From: a virus
Strand: one strand, 5' to 3'
IMG/VR virus record: IMGVR_UViG_3300025707_000036
Location: 1-25,743 of that record
Length of the DNA stretch: 25,743 nt
The position numbers were made by a program, and so were the translations under genes. Positions 5,804 through 19,338 of the stretch are shown here, piece after piece (position 1 is the first letter of the stretch; the number at the start of each line of letters is the position of its first letter). Under the pieces are notes generated by a model, which was not told the origin of the DNA, searched no databases, and worked only from the letters and a program-made list of their open reading frames with translations.

Positions 5804-6238
5804 TTAACCGTTAGGTACGGATAAACTTACATTTTCCACTGGTCCTGATGCAACAAGCAATGCTTTATCACCTACTGCAAATTGTGAACCTGTGCCTAGA
5901 GCACCAACTACAAAGTGACGTCCTGTAATTTGACTTGCAAAGTAAGTACCACCTGCACTATCTGTACCAGTAATCTGACACTGTGCTGCTGCTAATGAAC
6001 CTTGCACTACTGCGGTCAATACACAAGTTTCTGTGCCGTCTGAAGTAGTGACACGAAACTTCTTGTTACCTTTTTGGATAATTTCAGTAGTAGCATTGGC
6101 ACTTCCACTTGTTACAAATGCCTGCATAATCATCTGGTTACCACTTAGGCCACTTGAACCGATTGGTAATGCAGTGTTAGCAGCCGCTACTTTTGATGTT
6201 CCGCCTACTGTTTCTGCGCTTTTAATTGGTCTTCCCAT
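5804..6238 (-). CDS. Virion structural protein encoded next to the capsid gene (144 aa)
   Basis: The product begins MGRPIKSAETVGGTSKVAAA and is a small, Gly/Ser/Thr/Ala-rich, probably all-beta protein with segments KKFRVTTSDGTETCVLTAVV and GTYFASQITGRHFVVGA. It starts 7-8 nt after AAGGAG. It forms a transcription unit of its own: a late promoter box at 6313-6320, a 5' leader with a hairpin, and a terminator immediately after the gene. A strong isolated late unit next to gp23 suggests a protein needed in high copy, such as a head decoration or abundant tail protein. No named family is recognised, so that role is inferred from position and regulation only. Confidence 0.7.
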   Translation of the reverse strand: MGRPIKSAETVGGTSKVAAANTALPIGSSGLSGNQMIMQAFVTSGSANATTEIIQKGNKKFRVTTSDGTETCVLTAVVQGSLAAAQCQITGTDSAGGTYFASQITGRHFVVGALGTGSQFAVGDKALLVASGPVENVSLSVPNG

Positions 6239-6270
6239 TTTGTTTCTCCTTATGAGGGTTCTATCCCACT

Positions 6271-6290
6271 ACGCGGTTGGTATACCGCAT
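6271..6290 (-). promoter_or_regulatory. 5' leader hairpin of the 144-aa structural gene
   Basis: On the minus strand ATGCGGT pairs with ACCGCGT around the loop ATACCA (7 bp, one U-G pair). It lies in the leader between the late promoter and the AAGGAG ribosome site. 5' hairpins can stabilise abundant phage mRNAs; that role here is inference. Confidence 0.5.
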
Positions 6291-6312
6291 AAATCAGTCT
6301 TAGCTGATATTG

Positions 6313-15152: not shown

Positions 15153-15367
15153 GCCAGAGCAGACCTGAAATTATCAAGACGCTCGAACGTATGGAGCAGG
15201 AGGCGAAAGAGTTTAAAAAGCGATTATTAGAGTTATGTTGGCACATGCGTGGTGGACTAGCGTTTAACGAAGTCATGCAGATGTCGGTCAATGACCTTGT
15301 AATTATAAATGACATTGTTAAAGGTAATCTGGAAATTGCTAAAAAAACAGGTCTGCCGTACTTTTAA
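15149..15367 (+). CDS. Baseplate hub assembly factor, gp51-like (72 aa)
   Basis: The product reads LSQSRPEIIKTLERMEQEAK from a TTG start that overlaps the end of the gp26-like gene, so translation is coupled. The body has LLELCWHMRGGLAFNEVMQM, then SVNDLVIINDIVKGN and a C-terminal KKTGLPYF. A short protein with 'W.MRGG....E...ms..d...I..iv..N.e..kktGlP.F' directly after gp26 is, as I recall it, the hub assembly catalyst labelled gp51 in marine T4-like phages, although T4 gp51 itself is longer. It lacks any enzyme motif. The stop codon shares the tetranucleotide TTAA with the stop of the convergent minus-strand ORF. Confidence 0.6.
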   Translation: MSQSRPEIIKTLERMEQEAKEFKKRLLELCWHMRGGLAFNEVMQMSVNDLVIINDIVKGNLEIAKKTGLPYF

Positions 15368-15546
15368 TCTCTCTCAGCAAAATCAACAGGGTCTAAAGAA
15401 ACCCTGCCTTGCAAGCAATGGTCAGTTTCACTGCGATGTTGAAGCTCTATTTTGCTTCCGAAGTTAAATTTGTATCCTAAACGATCGGCTACATTGCAGA
15501 ACTCAAGAAAAGCACTCTCAAGTTCGACTACATCTCTTTTCATCAT
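15364..15546 (-). CDS. Small early protein of unknown function (60 aa)
   Basis: The chosen ATG at 15546 starts MMKRDVVELESAFLEFCNVA and follows AAGGGA by 9 nt; a GTG at 15564 is an alternative. The product is hydrophilic, with a helical N-terminal half (VVELESAFLEFCNVADRLGY) and a C-terminal half DHCLQGRVSLDPVDFAERD. There are no known motifs, signal peptide or membrane segment. A near-consensus sigma70 promoter lies about 60 nt upstream, so it is probably expressed early by unmodified host polymerase. Small early phage proteins often act on host machinery, but nothing in the sequence shows a target. It is convergent with, and ends inside the stop of, the gp51-like gene. Confidence 0.65.
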   Translation of the reverse strand: MMKRDVVELESAFLEFCNVADRLGYKFNFGSKIELQHRSETDHCLQGRVSLDPVDFAERD

Positions 15547-15608
15547 TTTTCCGTTTCCCTTCACTATATTACCTAAGGTAGGAGTATTTAATACTAGAGA
15601 ATACAGTG

Positions 15609-15637
15609 ATTATATTATACTTTTACAAATCCGTCAA
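15609..15637 (-). promoter_or_regulatory. Strong sigma70-type early promoter
   Basis: On the minus strand TTGACG (-35, positions 15637-15632) is followed after exactly 17 nt by a perfect TATAAT (-10, 15614-15609). It points at the 60-aa ORF that begins about 60 nt downstream. A second overlapping TATAAT at 15619-15614 has the wrong spacing for this -35. Confidence 0.8.
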
Positions 15638-15639
15638 TC

Positions 15640-16140
15640 AGATACGGATGAACTTGCGTTCATCCAAACACTCACTAACGTTCGTGTTTAACTTTACCTG
15701 ACATAAACTAAGTTACATTAACCTGGAGTTTTCAGTCAGACGGAACCAATTTCATGGTTCCATCTTTTGAATTACATTAACCTTCCGTTAACAGCCTTCA
15801 TGGAAATAGGTATTTTACACTACTCATTGGGCTCTGATCTTTCCCAACCTACATCGACATCAAATGTACTATAAACTGTGCATTAACCTGGTTAATGTCA
15901 GCTTTATGCTACGTTATTAGCGATTAACGTAACACGATGATTACATTCTATCCCCCGCTTCGTTCCTGTTGCTAAAGGGTTTTCATGAGTAATATGTGTT
16001 GTTCGAATGTCAGCAAATCATTCTACGCCGAACCCAGGGTTCACAGAAACAGCGTGTACGTGTGCAGGGATCGCCTGCGTTTTCCACAATCCGATAATAA
16101 TTGACGGATCAATCTTTATTGCTAATTATGAGGGTTCTGT
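15640..16140 (-). ncRNA. Candidate large structured non-coding RNA (gene-free region)
   Basis: About 500 nt between the GIY-YIG gene and the early promoter hold no plausible ORF but many hairpins. Stems by position: 15645-15653 with 15658-15666 (9 bp, loop GCAA on the minus strand, a GNRA tetraloop); 15666-15671 with 15684-15689; 15738-15748 with 15755-15765 (11 bp); 15881-15887 with 15891-15897; 15907-15916 with 15925-15934 (10 bp); 16030-16034 with 16038-16042; 16064-16068 with 16074-16078; 16089-16093 with 16105-16109. Three of these extend through G-U pairs only on the minus strand (A-C mismatches on the plus strand), which points to a minus-strand RNA. No known family (tRNA, tmRNA, RNase P, group I intron, glnA riboswitch) is recognised. 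Ends and promoter are not defined. Confidence 0.5.
15716..15898 (-). repeat. Three GGTTAATG repeats and one complementary ACATTAACC
   Basis: On the minus strand GGTTAATG occurs at 15888-15881, 15782-15775 and 15723-15716. The last two are GGTTAATGTAA and can each make 9 bp with the single ACATTAACC at 15898-15890, which also forms a local hairpin with the first copy. The pairings are mutually exclusive. All lie inside the candidate structured RNA. Confidence 0.55.
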
Positions 16141-16150
16141 ATGGGCCTGT

Positions 16151-16606
16151 TTAGTCTTGATTTGATTCATTGATGACGTGTTGACTTTGATGGACTCTAA
16201 CTCTTATTTGTCCATTATAATATTCGTCTGATTCTAATACTTTGTGCCTAAACTGTTCTCTTGCTTCAACGTAGCTACACTCTGCCTTGCTATAACAATA
16301 GAAGAGTATTTCACGTTTAAAGCAGCTTTTGCCGAGTGCTTCGATGTCTGCCGTTAATTCGTTTGACGATCCATAATATGTTTGCCAATCTGAATCTATT
16401 TTCTCTTTTATTTTTTTTCTTTTCTTTGTGCCATTCTTTAACTTAACTATACGATACTTGGTTTTTGCAAATTTTGCAAGTTTTTTTCCGATATATCTTT
16501 TGCCTGATTCTGTATTAGTAATAAGATATACAAAACCTACACAGTCTTCAGGCAATACTGTAATTTCGTTTAGTGATACGCCGTCAGACTTTATCCAGTT
16601 TGTCAT
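16151..16606 (-). CDS. GIY-YIG homing endonuclease, SegE-like
   Basis: The 151-aa product begins MTNWIKSDGVSLNEITVLPE. The nuclease fold is clear: GFVYLITN at residues 24-31 and KRYIGKK at 36-42 give the GIY and YIG elements. Next come a Lys-rich insert at about residues 55-70 (KLKNGTKKRKKIKEK), SDWQTYYGSS at 72-81, and CSYVEAREQF at 110-119 supplying the catalytic Glu region. This arrangement matches the SegE-type GIY-YIG family of free-standing endonucleases in T4-like phages, which cut DNA of phages lacking the gene and so spread by repair. No separate DNA-binding domain is seen beyond the basic insert. The ribosome site is poor (AAGG about 15 nt upstream). It lies after a radical-SAM gene and before the structured non-coding region. 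Confidence 0.82.
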   Translation of the reverse strand: MTNWIKSDGVSLNEITVLPEDCVGFVYLITNTESGKRYIGKKLAKFAKTKYRIVKLKNGTKKRKKIKEKIDSDWQTYYGSSNELTADIEALGKSCFKREILFYCYSKAECSYVEAREQFRHKVLESDEYYNGQIRVRVHQSQHVINESNQD

Positions 16607-16652: not shown

Positions 16653-17519
16653 TCATTTGAGTTGTATTTCTTTTCTCCACTGATCTTTAAATCTACTAAT
16701 AGAGTTACTAGTAGAACATGCCTCTTTACATGTAGGATTTGGATTATCTGTATTCCAGGTTTTTTCTACTTCACTGATATCACTAATTAAAACATCTAAG
16801 CTATTTCCTAGCCAGCAACAAGGATATAATCTGCCCTGTGCGTCAATATATGCACTCTGTTCATTTAAAACATGGCATTTAATTGGGCCAGTATTTGGCA
16901 ATGGATCAGCCCAATCATCAGGCTGTTCTAATCCAGCAATAGGGGTTCTTTTTGATACTTTAGCCCGAAACCATGAGAACCCCATGTCACGGGATAGCTG
17001 CTCTGCAGATTCAACTTGATGTTGGTTGTGCTTGTAAACCAACATATCCCAGTGAGCACTTCCGCCAGCGTTAATAAATGCTCTGGCATTGTTCATAACT
17101 TTTTCCCATATAACGTTTACGCGATATATAGAATTTGTGTCTTCTAGTCCGTCAATGCTAAACACCACATAATCAGTAGGGTTATTAAATAACTTACCTA
17201 CTTCAGACCACCATGCAGTGGTCTGCAATGCACCGTTTGTGTTAATACCAAGTGTTATACTAGGATTAATATTACGAACATATTTAAGAATGTCTAATGT
17301 ATTTTTCCCAGCAACTGGGTCACCATAATTACCACACATAAACACCTTGTCTAATTTAGCAATAGCATTGTCGTCAAAATTCTCTAGCAACTGATCAATA
17401 CGTAAATGATTCTTTATGTTTTTGTTAAAAACTAGATTGGTTTCACGAGCACATAACGGGCATGCCGCTTGGCATACGTTGGTGCTTTCCAAATGTAATA
17501 CTTTTATTTCTCTGTTCAT
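16653..17519 (-). CDS. Radical SAM/SPASM protein (288 aa)
   Basis: The product begins MNREIKVLHLESTNVCQAAC. Cys16, Cys20 and Cys23 form a CxxxCxxC cluster motif that should bind the 4Fe-4S cluster used to cleave S-adenosylmethionine. Further family features are KVFMCGNYGDP (58-68), LGINTNG and FSIDGLEDTN. The C-terminal third has Cys215, Cys234, Cys235, Cys264 and Cys268, arranged as a SPASM-like auxiliary cluster domain. It is clearly paralogous to the N-terminal two thirds of the 569-aa protein upstream, with the shared stretch NNARAFINAGG versus NNAQAFINAGG. Its ATG overlaps, as ATGA, the stop codon of a gene 46 remnant, which shows that it originally followed a gene 46. The substrate is unknown; peptide, nucleotide or sugar modification are possible. 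Confidence 0.88.
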   Translation of the reverse strand: MNREIKVLHLESTNVCQAACPLCARETNLVFNKNIKNHLRIDQLLENFDDNAIAKLDKVFMCGNYGDPVAGKNTLDILKYVRNINPSITLGINTNGALQTTAWWSEVGKLFNNPTDYVVFSIDGLEDTNSIYRVNVIWEKVMNNARAFINAGGSAHWDMLVYKHNQHQVESAEQLSRDMGFSWFRAKVSKRTPIAGLEQPDDWADPLPNTGPIKCHVLNEQSAYIDAQGRLYPCCWLGNSLDVLISDISEVEKTWNTDNPNPTCKEACSTSNSISRFKDQWRKEIQLK

Positions 17520-17617
17520 ACTAGTTCCACATTCGTATCGTAACTTGTGTATCCATTTTCCTTGACAACTTTTAGTATATTATTAACCCTGCCGGCTAGT
17601 TCATCCTTGTATAGCCA
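17516..17617 (-). pseudogene. 46: Remnant of a second gene 46 (last 33 codons)
   Basis: Read on the minus strand, this gap encodes WLYKDELAGRVNNILKVV followed by KENGYTSYDTNVELV and a stop. Resident gp46 ends WLVSHKDELAGRVNNILKVV, then KENGYTSYDTDIEVV. Over the 25 codons from KDEL to SYDT the proteins are identical while six codons differ silently (for example GCA/GCC, CGT/AGG). The fragment lacks two codons just before this block and has Tyr in place of the H-loop His. It has no start codon of its own. The pattern shows that it diverged as a functional gene 46 and was truncated recently, so it is most likely a recombination scar. Confidence 0.92.
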
Positions 17618-17628
17618 TGTCATATATA

Positions 17629-19338
17629 TTATATATTATCACTGTCATTTAGATTAGCAAAAAGTGAAATTTCTTCAATAACAGTCGCATCTCTGATTGT
17701 AATACACCAATTAATAAAATCTGCTATATGTGAACAGTCCACAGCAGAGCCTGTCCAACTATCTCTACTTCTACTTAATGGTGTGTCTAACCTATCAGGA
17801 GTAATTAAGGTAGTCTTAAATTTTACCAATCCTTCTTTATATGCTTGTGTGCATTGTTTGCTTGCATGAGCAAGAGCCGCTTTACTTACTCTATATGTTT
17901 CAAACTCAGGTTCTGGAGCGACAATTGCCTTTTCACTAACACTGCCAATATTAAAAATCCATCCTACCTTACCTAATTCTTTCCATCGTTTATATACTGC
18001 TTGAAGCAAATTTACCTGTGCATAATTTGCCCATTCCGTATCAGGAGGACCATCAAATGCATTATTAATAAAGACATCATAGTGTATAGTATCTTCAACA
18101 ATCTTGTCAATATCTTTTGTGATATCTAATCCAGTTTCCCTACTACAACCATCTGCATTAAATCGATCTGTTAATGCTAGTCCTAATCCTCTATTATTCC
18201 CTGTTATATAATACCTATAAGTGCTTGTCACTTTCTTATTTTGATCCCATACCTTTGTTAGTTTTTGACCACACGTAAATGCACATTCAAATATTCTGCC
18301 TTCACCTAGAGGTTTGCTCCAACTATCTACTAGTTCAGTCCAAAATTTACTGGACATAATCTCTTCTAATGTATGATTGTGAATATTCAATTCATCTTTG
18401 TATTTGTTTACAAACTCGCTAACTTGATTTTTACCATCTACAAAATGTAAATCATTTGCTCCAGGCGCTATTGATCTATCATGGAATCGTGCATCATATA
18501 AATTGTGTTCAAAGAAGTTACAAGGAAGAACTAAACCTTCTGCTGTAATAACAACTTTGCTACCTATACATGCGTCACACTTAATAGGTGTTGTATTAAA
18601 ATAGTCACGCATATTTGGGTATTCTTGTTTTAAACTATCTAAACGTTGCATACTTGCATTATGATATTCACTTAATGTAGTAACGTTTAATTCATATGGA
18701 TCATCTTTTTGTGGTACTACGCTCCATGCATCATTCTGTTCTAAGTTTTCATGATCTAAAAATCTACCAGTACCTCTGAATAATATATCTTCAAAACCTA
18801 CAAGTGTGCTGAGTGTTTTAGCTTGGTTAATTTGGTGTTCATTATGTTTGAATACAATGTAGTTCCACTGTGCTTTGCCACCTGCATTTATAAATGCTTG
18901 TGCATTGTTAATAGCTTTTTCAAATTTTACGTTACGCCTATATAAATGGTTTGTATCTTCTAATCCATCAATACCAAAATCAATTTTGCCATAACCATTG
19001 ATAATAGTCGCTAATTCAACCCACCATTCTGCATCATGTAAACCACCATTGGTGTGAATGTATATCCATAGTTCAGGGTTCTTAAGTCTAAAATCTCTAA
19101 CGATTTCTAAAAAATCTGAATGAACAATAGGATCACCATAGCTTCCACAAAAGAATATTTGGCTTAGCCCTTTACATACTTCTCTAGTAAATCTTCGATC
19201 AATAATACCTGCATCCAGATGGCATAAAGGCATATATGGATTAACACTGCCTCCATTCAAGTTTCTTGGGCATTGTGGACATGCAGCATTGCAGTATGTT
19301 GTGATTTCTAACTGATATTCTTTTATGTTGTTAAACAA
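17629..19338 (-). CDS. Radical SAM/SPASM fused to a short-chain dehydrogenase (569 aa)
   Basis: The start is a TTG at 19338 overlapping the gp46 stop; it aligns exactly with the ATG of the 288-aa paralogue (FNNIKEYQLEITTYCNAACP versus NREIKVLHLESTNVCQAACP), which supports it. Residues 1-360 are radical SAM plus SPASM-like: Cys16/20/23 as CxxxCxxC, IFFCGSYGDP at 61-70, GIDGLEDTN at 122-130, and Cys254, Cys257, Cys273, Cys352 and Cys356 for auxiliary clusters. Residues of about 375-569 form an SDR-type Rossmann domain: TGNNRGLG at 379-386 (dinucleotide binding), NNA at 425-427, Ser466, and Tyr482xxxLys486 (YRVSK), so the active-site triad is intact. A radical step followed by an NAD(P)-dependent redox step on one substrate is suggested. 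It is translationally coupled to gp46. The substrate is unknown. Confidence 0.88.
   Translation of the reverse strand: MFNNIKEYQLEITTYCNAACPQCPRNLNGGSVNPYMPLCHLDAGIIDRRFTREVCKGLSQIFFCGSYGDPIVHSDFLEIVRDFRLKNPELWIYIHTNGGLHDAEWWVELATIINGYGKIDFGIDGLEDTNHLYRRNVKFEKAINNAQAFINAGGKAQWNYIVFKHNEHQINQAKTLSTLVGFEDILFRGTGRFLDHENLEQNDAWSVVPQKDDPYELNVTTLSEYHNASMQRLDSLKQEYPNMRDYFNTTPIKCDACIGSKVVITAEGLVLPCNFFEHNLYDARFHDRSIAPGANDLHFVDGKNQVSEFVNKYKDELNIHNHTLEEIMSSKFWTELVDSWSKPLGEGRIFECAFTCGQKLTKVWDQNKKVTSTYRYYITGNNRGLGLALTDRFNADGCSRETGLDITKDIDKIVEDTIHYDVFINNAFDGPPDTEWANYAQVNLLQAVYKRWKELGKVGWIFNIGSVSEKAIVAPEPEFETYRVSKAALAHASKQCTQAYKEGLVKFKTTLITPDRLDTPLSRSRDSWTGSAVDCSHIADFINWCITIRDATVIEEISLFANLNDSDNI

Follow-up and report, generated by a model that had tools for sequence, protein, structure and literature searches.

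A large structured RNA downstream of SegE in a T4-like phage fragment presents one short word twice

Positions 15640-16130 of the DNA analysed here (the window, 25,743 nucleotides) encode on the minus strand a large, highly structured RNA, directly downstream of a SegE-type homing endonuclease gene; comparison with homologues confirmed this. The window, 25.7 kb long, comes from a T4-like phage and encodes portal, head, baseplate and gene 46-like proteins. The RNA belongs to a family that is widespread in marine and freshwater phages and, as far as covariance models and alignments can tell, it is a divergent, Rfam-invisible branch of the RF01718 superfamily. The original prediction, made from the letters of the window alone, foresaw neither this superfamily nor the two pseudoknots, the twin heptamers and the tight but non-obligate linkage to SegE described below.

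Results

Setting and strand of the RNA

The RNA and its immediate neighbours are, in the direction of transcription:

16151 to 16606, minus strand: SegE-type GIY-YIG homing endonuclease gene, directly upstream of the RNA (Pfam PF19835 SegE_GIY-YIG, 1.4e-32)
15640 to 16130, minus strand: large structured RNA of about 490 nt (homologues aligned, fold z -4.1, covariation)
15609 to 15637, minus strand: promoter-like site TTGACG-17-TATAAT, upstream of the 66-aa ORF and just outside the RNA, matching 11 of 12 consensus positions
15364 to 15564, minus strand: ORF of 66 aa, on the far side of the gap from SegE, whose stop is at 16151

It had been predicted that about 500 nt at 15640-16140 are without an ORF and lie between a GIY-YIG endonuclease and a promoter. 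This description was accurate: in the gap of about 585 bases between the 66-aa ORF and SegE the minus strand holds no convincing gene, only short chance ORFs, the endonuclease is a SegE protein by its Pfam match, and sequences similar to the promoter-like site occur in close relatives. The 5' end of the RNA was inferred from the alignment, the 3' end was placed after the terminal hairpin.

Some other features of the window deserve mention. Two radical SAM genes lie between gene 46 and SegE (16653-19338, minus strand), the second with a C-terminal part that is short-chain-dehydrogenase-like; the near-identical phage L002 lacks this stretch. The best PHROG match of the SegE protein is PHROG 447, whose label, NAD synthetase, looks wrong. 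The Rfam freshwater-2 RNA (RF02980, 53.9 bits) was found at 6236-6309 (minus strand), where the major head protein gene and the ORF 5804-6238 flank it.

Relative to shuffled sequences, the fold z-scores of 15570-16150 were -2.4 (minus strand) and -2.7 (plus strand), those of the trimmed interval 15640-16130 were -4.1 and -3.6. As both strands fold better than shuffles, thermodynamics shows that there is structure and does not choose the strand. The helices tested in the alignments contained, when read on the minus (SegE-sense) strand, 59 cells with G-U or U-G pairs versus approximately 10 A-C mismatches, and because of this excess we assign the RNA to the SegE-sense strand. The original prediction had preferred the minus strand because its longer hairpins gain wobble pairs only there; the comparative data show that the strand was right, but the argument was weak by itself, since both strands fold well. 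The proposal of a functional type of RNA structure on this strand would have failed if the folding energy had been no lower than that of shuffled sequences (z is -4.1 on the minus strand of 15640-16130) or if homologues had lacked covariation. Several helices covary, including two pseudoknots, and together with the G-U asymmetry this sustains the proposal; the GCAA-capped hairpin that it included is real and maps to 15646-15665.

The RNA is also better conserved than its surroundings: between L002 and the window identity is 97.3% over the 601-base RNA stretch and 92.6% over the surrounding 6.4 kb. The minimum free energy model suggested a 12-bp helix closing the whole RNA. This helix probably does not form: its 3' half coincides with the -35 box of the promoter-like site that follows, and the pairing is lost in relatives.

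Covariation and architecture of the core

Whole-RNA alignment with MAFFT and RNAalifold was too gappy, and anchored tests were used instead. The partner-swap test compares how well the two strands of a helix fit when both come from the same RNA and when they come from different RNAs. The parts of the RNA, from 5' to 3', are:

15985 to 15999, minus strand: 5' strand of helix X, a long-range pseudoknot (ACACAUAUUACUCAU), pairing with 15817-15827
15948 to 15979, minus strand: stem B with conserved loop AGGAACGARG (compensatory changes)
15859 to 15946, minus strand: variable hairpin module C (alignment gap and partner-swap test)
15853 to 15855, minus strand: 5' strand (GAU) of the short pseudoknot F, pairing with 15836-15838 within the P2 loop
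15847 to 15852, minus strand: 5' strand of P1 (GUAGGU), pairing with 15806-15811
15828 to 15846, minus strand: P2 hairpin, UGGG-AAAGAUCAGAG-CCCA (alignment; its core served as a scan pattern)
15817 to 15827, minus strand: 3' strand of helix X (AUGAGUAGUGU), inside the P1 loop (partner-swap test)
15806 to 15811, minus strand: 3' strand of P1 (ACCUAU; alignment test)
15772 to 15783, minus strand: twin word, copy 1 (AGGUUAAUGUAA), identical to copy 2
15739 to 15764, minus strand: P5 hairpin, GAUGGAACC / GGUUCCGUC, between the twin words (97% of cells paired)
15713 to 15724, minus strand: twin word, copy 2 (AGGUUAAUGUAA), identical to copy 1
15667 to 15688, minus strand: hairpin AACAC-GAACGUUAGUGA-GUGUU with the conserved motif GARC-NNNN-GYGA (swap test of the flanking stem)
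15646 to 15665, minus strand: terminal hairpin with GCAA loop (fold and alignment)

Own partners scored higher than swapped ones for helix X (15.8 versus 12.3, sd 0.25), stem B (12.2 versus 10.4), hairpin C (16.4 versus 11.7), the stem around the GARC/GYGA motif (12.3 versus 8.6), P3 (12.3 versus 11.2) and, with few distinct cases, the short pseudoknot F (5.9 versus 4.4). P5 gains little in this test because it hardly varies; two of its pairs have changes on both sides. Compensatory pairs in stem B include CCCUU/GGGGG, CUUAAA/UUUAAG, CUGUAAC/GUUACAG and more, P1 changes from GUAGGU/ACCUAC to GCAGGU/ACCUGC, and all three pairs of the short pseudoknot vary on both sides (GAC/GUC, GAU/AUC, GUG/CAC and others). 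The long form of hairpin C (AGGUUAAUG and its complement) is absent from L003, L006 and L008, seen as a gap in alignment A1. Since helix X crosses P1, and F crosses both P1 and P2, the core is doubly pseudoknotted.

Of the core-helix cells in alignment A2, 96.5% were paired versus 93.2% after shuffling, and 22 cells changed on both sides versus 4.2; when the helices were slid, 29-47% of the cells were paired. These shuffle controls do not fully model relatedness, and the stronger argument for covariation is that partner exchanges recur across many sequence types.

The twin words

A 7-nt word occurs twice in each RNA, once on the 5' and once on the 3' side of P5; the two copies are the same within an RNA and variable between RNAs. 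Among the matches listed, 99 of 100 distinct pairs of the window type were identical over all seven bases (56% after shuffling), and so were 52 of 53 in the sister subfamily described below (17% after shuffling). The window's own twin words are of a different type, 12 bases long, and fall outside the heptamer parsing; when all types, this one included, were scored together, own pairs reached 7.65 and swapped pairs 6.23. The heptamers were identical in the inspected bacterial RNA copies, too. It must be noted that in some window-type loci part of copy 2 was dictated by the pattern of the second scan, a bias that affects neither the first scan nor the sister subfamily.

In both subfamilies the three bases preceding the words always differ (CUC versus UCU), position 8 is uncoupled and position 9 partly coupled. 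The differing flanks and the uncoupled position 8 make recent duplication or gene conversion an unlikely source of the identity, with the reservation that the parsing itself fixed the preceding flanks. We found no segment of the RNA that covaries with the heptamer as an internal complement; in the sister subfamily one constant site pairs partly with it, without covariation. A search of the flanking DNA for enrichment or avoidance of the heptamer, as expected of a self-target, gave nothing clear or convincing. Short ORFs starting at an AUG in the heptamer were considered and dropped, being broken in several relatives (by inspection only). The simplest reading of the identity is that one external partner reads both copies; this is an inference, and no partner has been identified. 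Covariation of two short words by identity and not by complementarity is not known to us from any other RNA family.

The RNA of L004 is nearly identical to that of the window in its upstream part, and its 3' module carries a different type of twin word, apparently swapped. Going by the two sequences, this suggests recombination inside the RNA gene.

Homologues, the sister subfamily and RF01718

The first relatives were found by a SegE-seeded search. Viral contigs were then searched in three DNA-pattern scans, each with at least 120 matches, so that all counts given here are lower bounds; the 21-base core pattern gave at least 120 matches, and a different, 3' pattern gave at least 120 and reached more divergent members. 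When window-type and sister RNAs were compared with cultured phages by BLAST, there was no RNA match, only SegE of Melnitz phages and one 47-base match within SegE. One pattern match, in a Ferrovum MAG (L204), was discarded as isolated, the rest of the RNA being absent. One Neomarinimicrobiota MAG has identical RNA cores on two of its contigs (L205 and L206, of 335 kb and 153 kb), which may be phage sequence that ended up in the same bin.

The Rfam 15 covariance search of the window region and its relatives gave no match of the window RNA to any family, GOLLD, ROOL, HEARO and group I/II introns included, in agreement with the original prediction, which could not match it to large ornate RNAs such as GOLLD and ROOL. 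The 141-nt covariance model of RF01718 (Polynucleobacter-1) did not match the window RNA up to E 5, and the other window-type loci had no Rfam match, RF01718 included, up to E 1. A covariance model built from window-type RNAs only gave weak matches approximately 246-320 nt behind other SegE genes, and these loci constitute the sister subfamily. Over 614 kb of sister loci 11 of the 13 matches of this model (R1), including the best ten, fell on the sister RNA in the right strand. The individual scores were weak and the model recognises the 3' domain in part of the loci; the placement of the matches is not chance, and on this ground we take the two branches to be homologous. They share a 3' domain with the P1 helix, a P5-like hairpin and the twin heptamers. 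The 5' domain of the sister subfamily is RF01718 (66-118 bits in four loci), and it is through this subfamily that the window RNA is assigned to the superfamily.

In Burkholderiales RF01718 exceeded the cut-off in 3 of 399 genomes, and one more locus was weaker. All four loci are divergent from a DUF6641-like gene, integrase-like genes are near two of them, and no SegE was found among their ORFs. A fifth bacterial locus, with identical heptamers, is near a DUF6641 match. Thus a DUF6641 (PF20346) gene stands beside the RNA in L369-L372 and L386, and some Burkholderiales genomes have extra DUF6641 copies without a detected RNA. As a constant partner DUF6641 was rejected: it was absent from the 18 phage records searched, and in bacteria it often occurs without the RNA.

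Linkage to SegE and its exceptions

Among the matches listed, SegE preceded the RNA in the same orientation in 109 of 110 testable loci of the first scan and in 110 of 112 testable sister loci. Most first-scan loci lie behind gene 46, so much of this linkage may be shared ancestry. Several loci depart from the pattern: a PDDEXK_15 nuclease replaces SegE while the RNA is kept (L220, L235), SegE is downstream of the RNA (L208, L219), or no nuclease adjoins the RNA (L225, L227, L119). Conversely, the Melnitz phage has SegE without the RNA, and its next gene starts approximately 150 nt downstream. The SegE proteins of L004 and the window are 93% identical, with different twin words. We conclude from the exceptions to SegE adjacency that the RNA is a unit of its own, whose tie to the nuclease is strong but not obligate. 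In four loci (L024, L096, L123, L140) a small zinc-ribbon-like ORF (HNWxxx...GPHxGKIICxxC...WLPK; Pfam match not significant) lies between SegE and the RNA, and in L224 a second GIY-YIG-like ORF is found there on the opposite strand. We found no literature on a large structured SegE-linked RNA; the search was limited to open-access text, and most subscription papers were outside it.

Discussion

Possible functions of the RNA

In the reading that we prefer, with a confidence that stops at about even, the RNA acts in trans and offers two identical sites to one external partner, SegE being its neighbouring mobiliser. The RNA, of phages and other mobile elements, would be transcribed in the SegE sense, fold into its pseudoknotted core and present one short word (a heptamer in most relatives) twice, on either side of hairpin P5. 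A single external partner, protein or nucleic acid, would read both copies, which would have to stay identical while the partner drifts; the RNA could then be a two-site decoy, an antisense regulator or an assembly scaffold. SegE would most likely be a free-standing homing endonuclease next to the RNA and would spread the locus, much as SegB acts on loci close to it in T-even phages; SegB of a T-even phage is reported to amplify anti-defence loci (PMC13096335). We prefer this reading because the core covaries, the twin heptamers are identical in two divergent subfamilies and have no internal complement, the RNA persists where SegE is replaced, downstream or absent, and the RNA stretch has diverged less than the DNA around it. 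What was observed is the RNA with its strand and its covarying core, the heptamer rule and the linkage with its exceptions; that the RNA acts in trans, that it has an external partner and what SegE contributes are inferred only. Adjacency to SegE in 109/110 and 110/112 loci is more than a loose mobiliser would need, and there are neither expression data nor a partner.

The main rival, unlikely in our judgement but the most serious of the alternatives, turns that adjacency into its strength. The RNA would be a subunit of an RNA-directed or RNA-assisted nuclease, bound by SegE or the PDDEXK enzyme, and the heptamers would be short guides or docking sites for a DNA target, an OMEGA-like logic with a GIY-YIG enzyme instead. 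Near-constant adjacency on a common strand, exchange of the nuclease while the RNA is retained, the occurrence of SegE and RNA together in two genome contexts and in either order, and duplicated short variable words all speak for it. It is harder to reconcile with the three loci whose RNA has no adjacent nuclease, with the RNA-less SegE of the Melnitz phage, and with L004, where the SegE proteins are 93% identical to those of the window, yet the twin words differ; moreover, seven bases are few for a guide, and the flanking DNA shows no clear heptamer enrichment or avoidance. A bolder proposal would make the RNA the part that guides or targets a new kind of RNA-directed system with a GIY-YIG (or PDDEXK) nuclease as its enzyme; the two identical heptamers of the RNA would then address DNA or RNA targets in homing, recombination or interference with competitors. 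This seems to us more doubtful still. We give similarly little credence to a 3'-UTR or cis element controlling the stability or translation of SegE mRNA: in the usual arrangement the RNA stands behind the stop codon of SegE in the same orientation, but it is unusually large and conserved for such a role and elsewhere stands alone, before SegE or divergent from another gene.

One could also think of self-cleavage or self-splicing, by a ribozyme or by an intron-like mobile element not yet recognised, in view of the large size of the RNA, its pseudoknots, its unpaired segments with almost no variation and the homing endonuclease associated with it. We consider this improbable, as Rfam returned no group I, group II or ribozyme match and the commonest flanking genes look complete and separate, not like split exons, a judgement made without comparison of exon junctions or empty sites. 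That the structure is an artefact, due to DNA rich in palindromes or to chance folding of the sequence between two genes, can scarcely be maintained: both strands do fold somewhat better than shuffles, but compensatory changes, the G-U asymmetry and homologues numbering at least in the hundreds already contradict it.

Comparison with known systems

Like GOLLD and ROOL, the window RNA is large and ornate, and those RNAs, too, are known from phages and mobile elements; it differs from them in having no match to their Rfam models. HEARO (the omega RNA of IscB) and the omega RNA of TnpB are likewise structured RNAs tied to a small nuclease gene on mobile DNA. Their partners are HNH/RuvC enzymes, whereas the partner in the window family is GIY-YIG or PDDEXK_15, again without an Rfam match, and for the window RNA a guide segment at the boundary of an element has not been demonstrated, boundaries and empty sites being unresolved. 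Among the free-standing homing endonucleases of T4 (SegE, SegB), which spread neighbouring loci, the SegE family includes the gene upstream of the window RNA.

The closest counterpart is Polynucleobacter-1, which appears once in the main text of its original description, in a table, with no function given (Weinberg et al. 2010, PMC2864571). In the sister subfamily RF01718 is the 5' domain, likewise behind SegE and followed by the twin-heptamer 3' domain, whereas the Rfam family has only 141 nt, without the 3' domain, the twin heptamers and the SegE link. RF01718 was thus known as a named branch; the window branch, the full-length pseudoknotted architecture, the twin-heptamer rule and the link to SegE are new. 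A 141-nt family of 2010 whose function is not known becomes a superfamily of approximately 500-nt RNAs widespread in aquatic phages, and gains SegE, PDDEXK_15 and DUF6641 as genetic neighbours. The identity of the twin heptamers is a strict, testable rule, which points to a partner reading both copies and makes the function of the superfamily directly testable.
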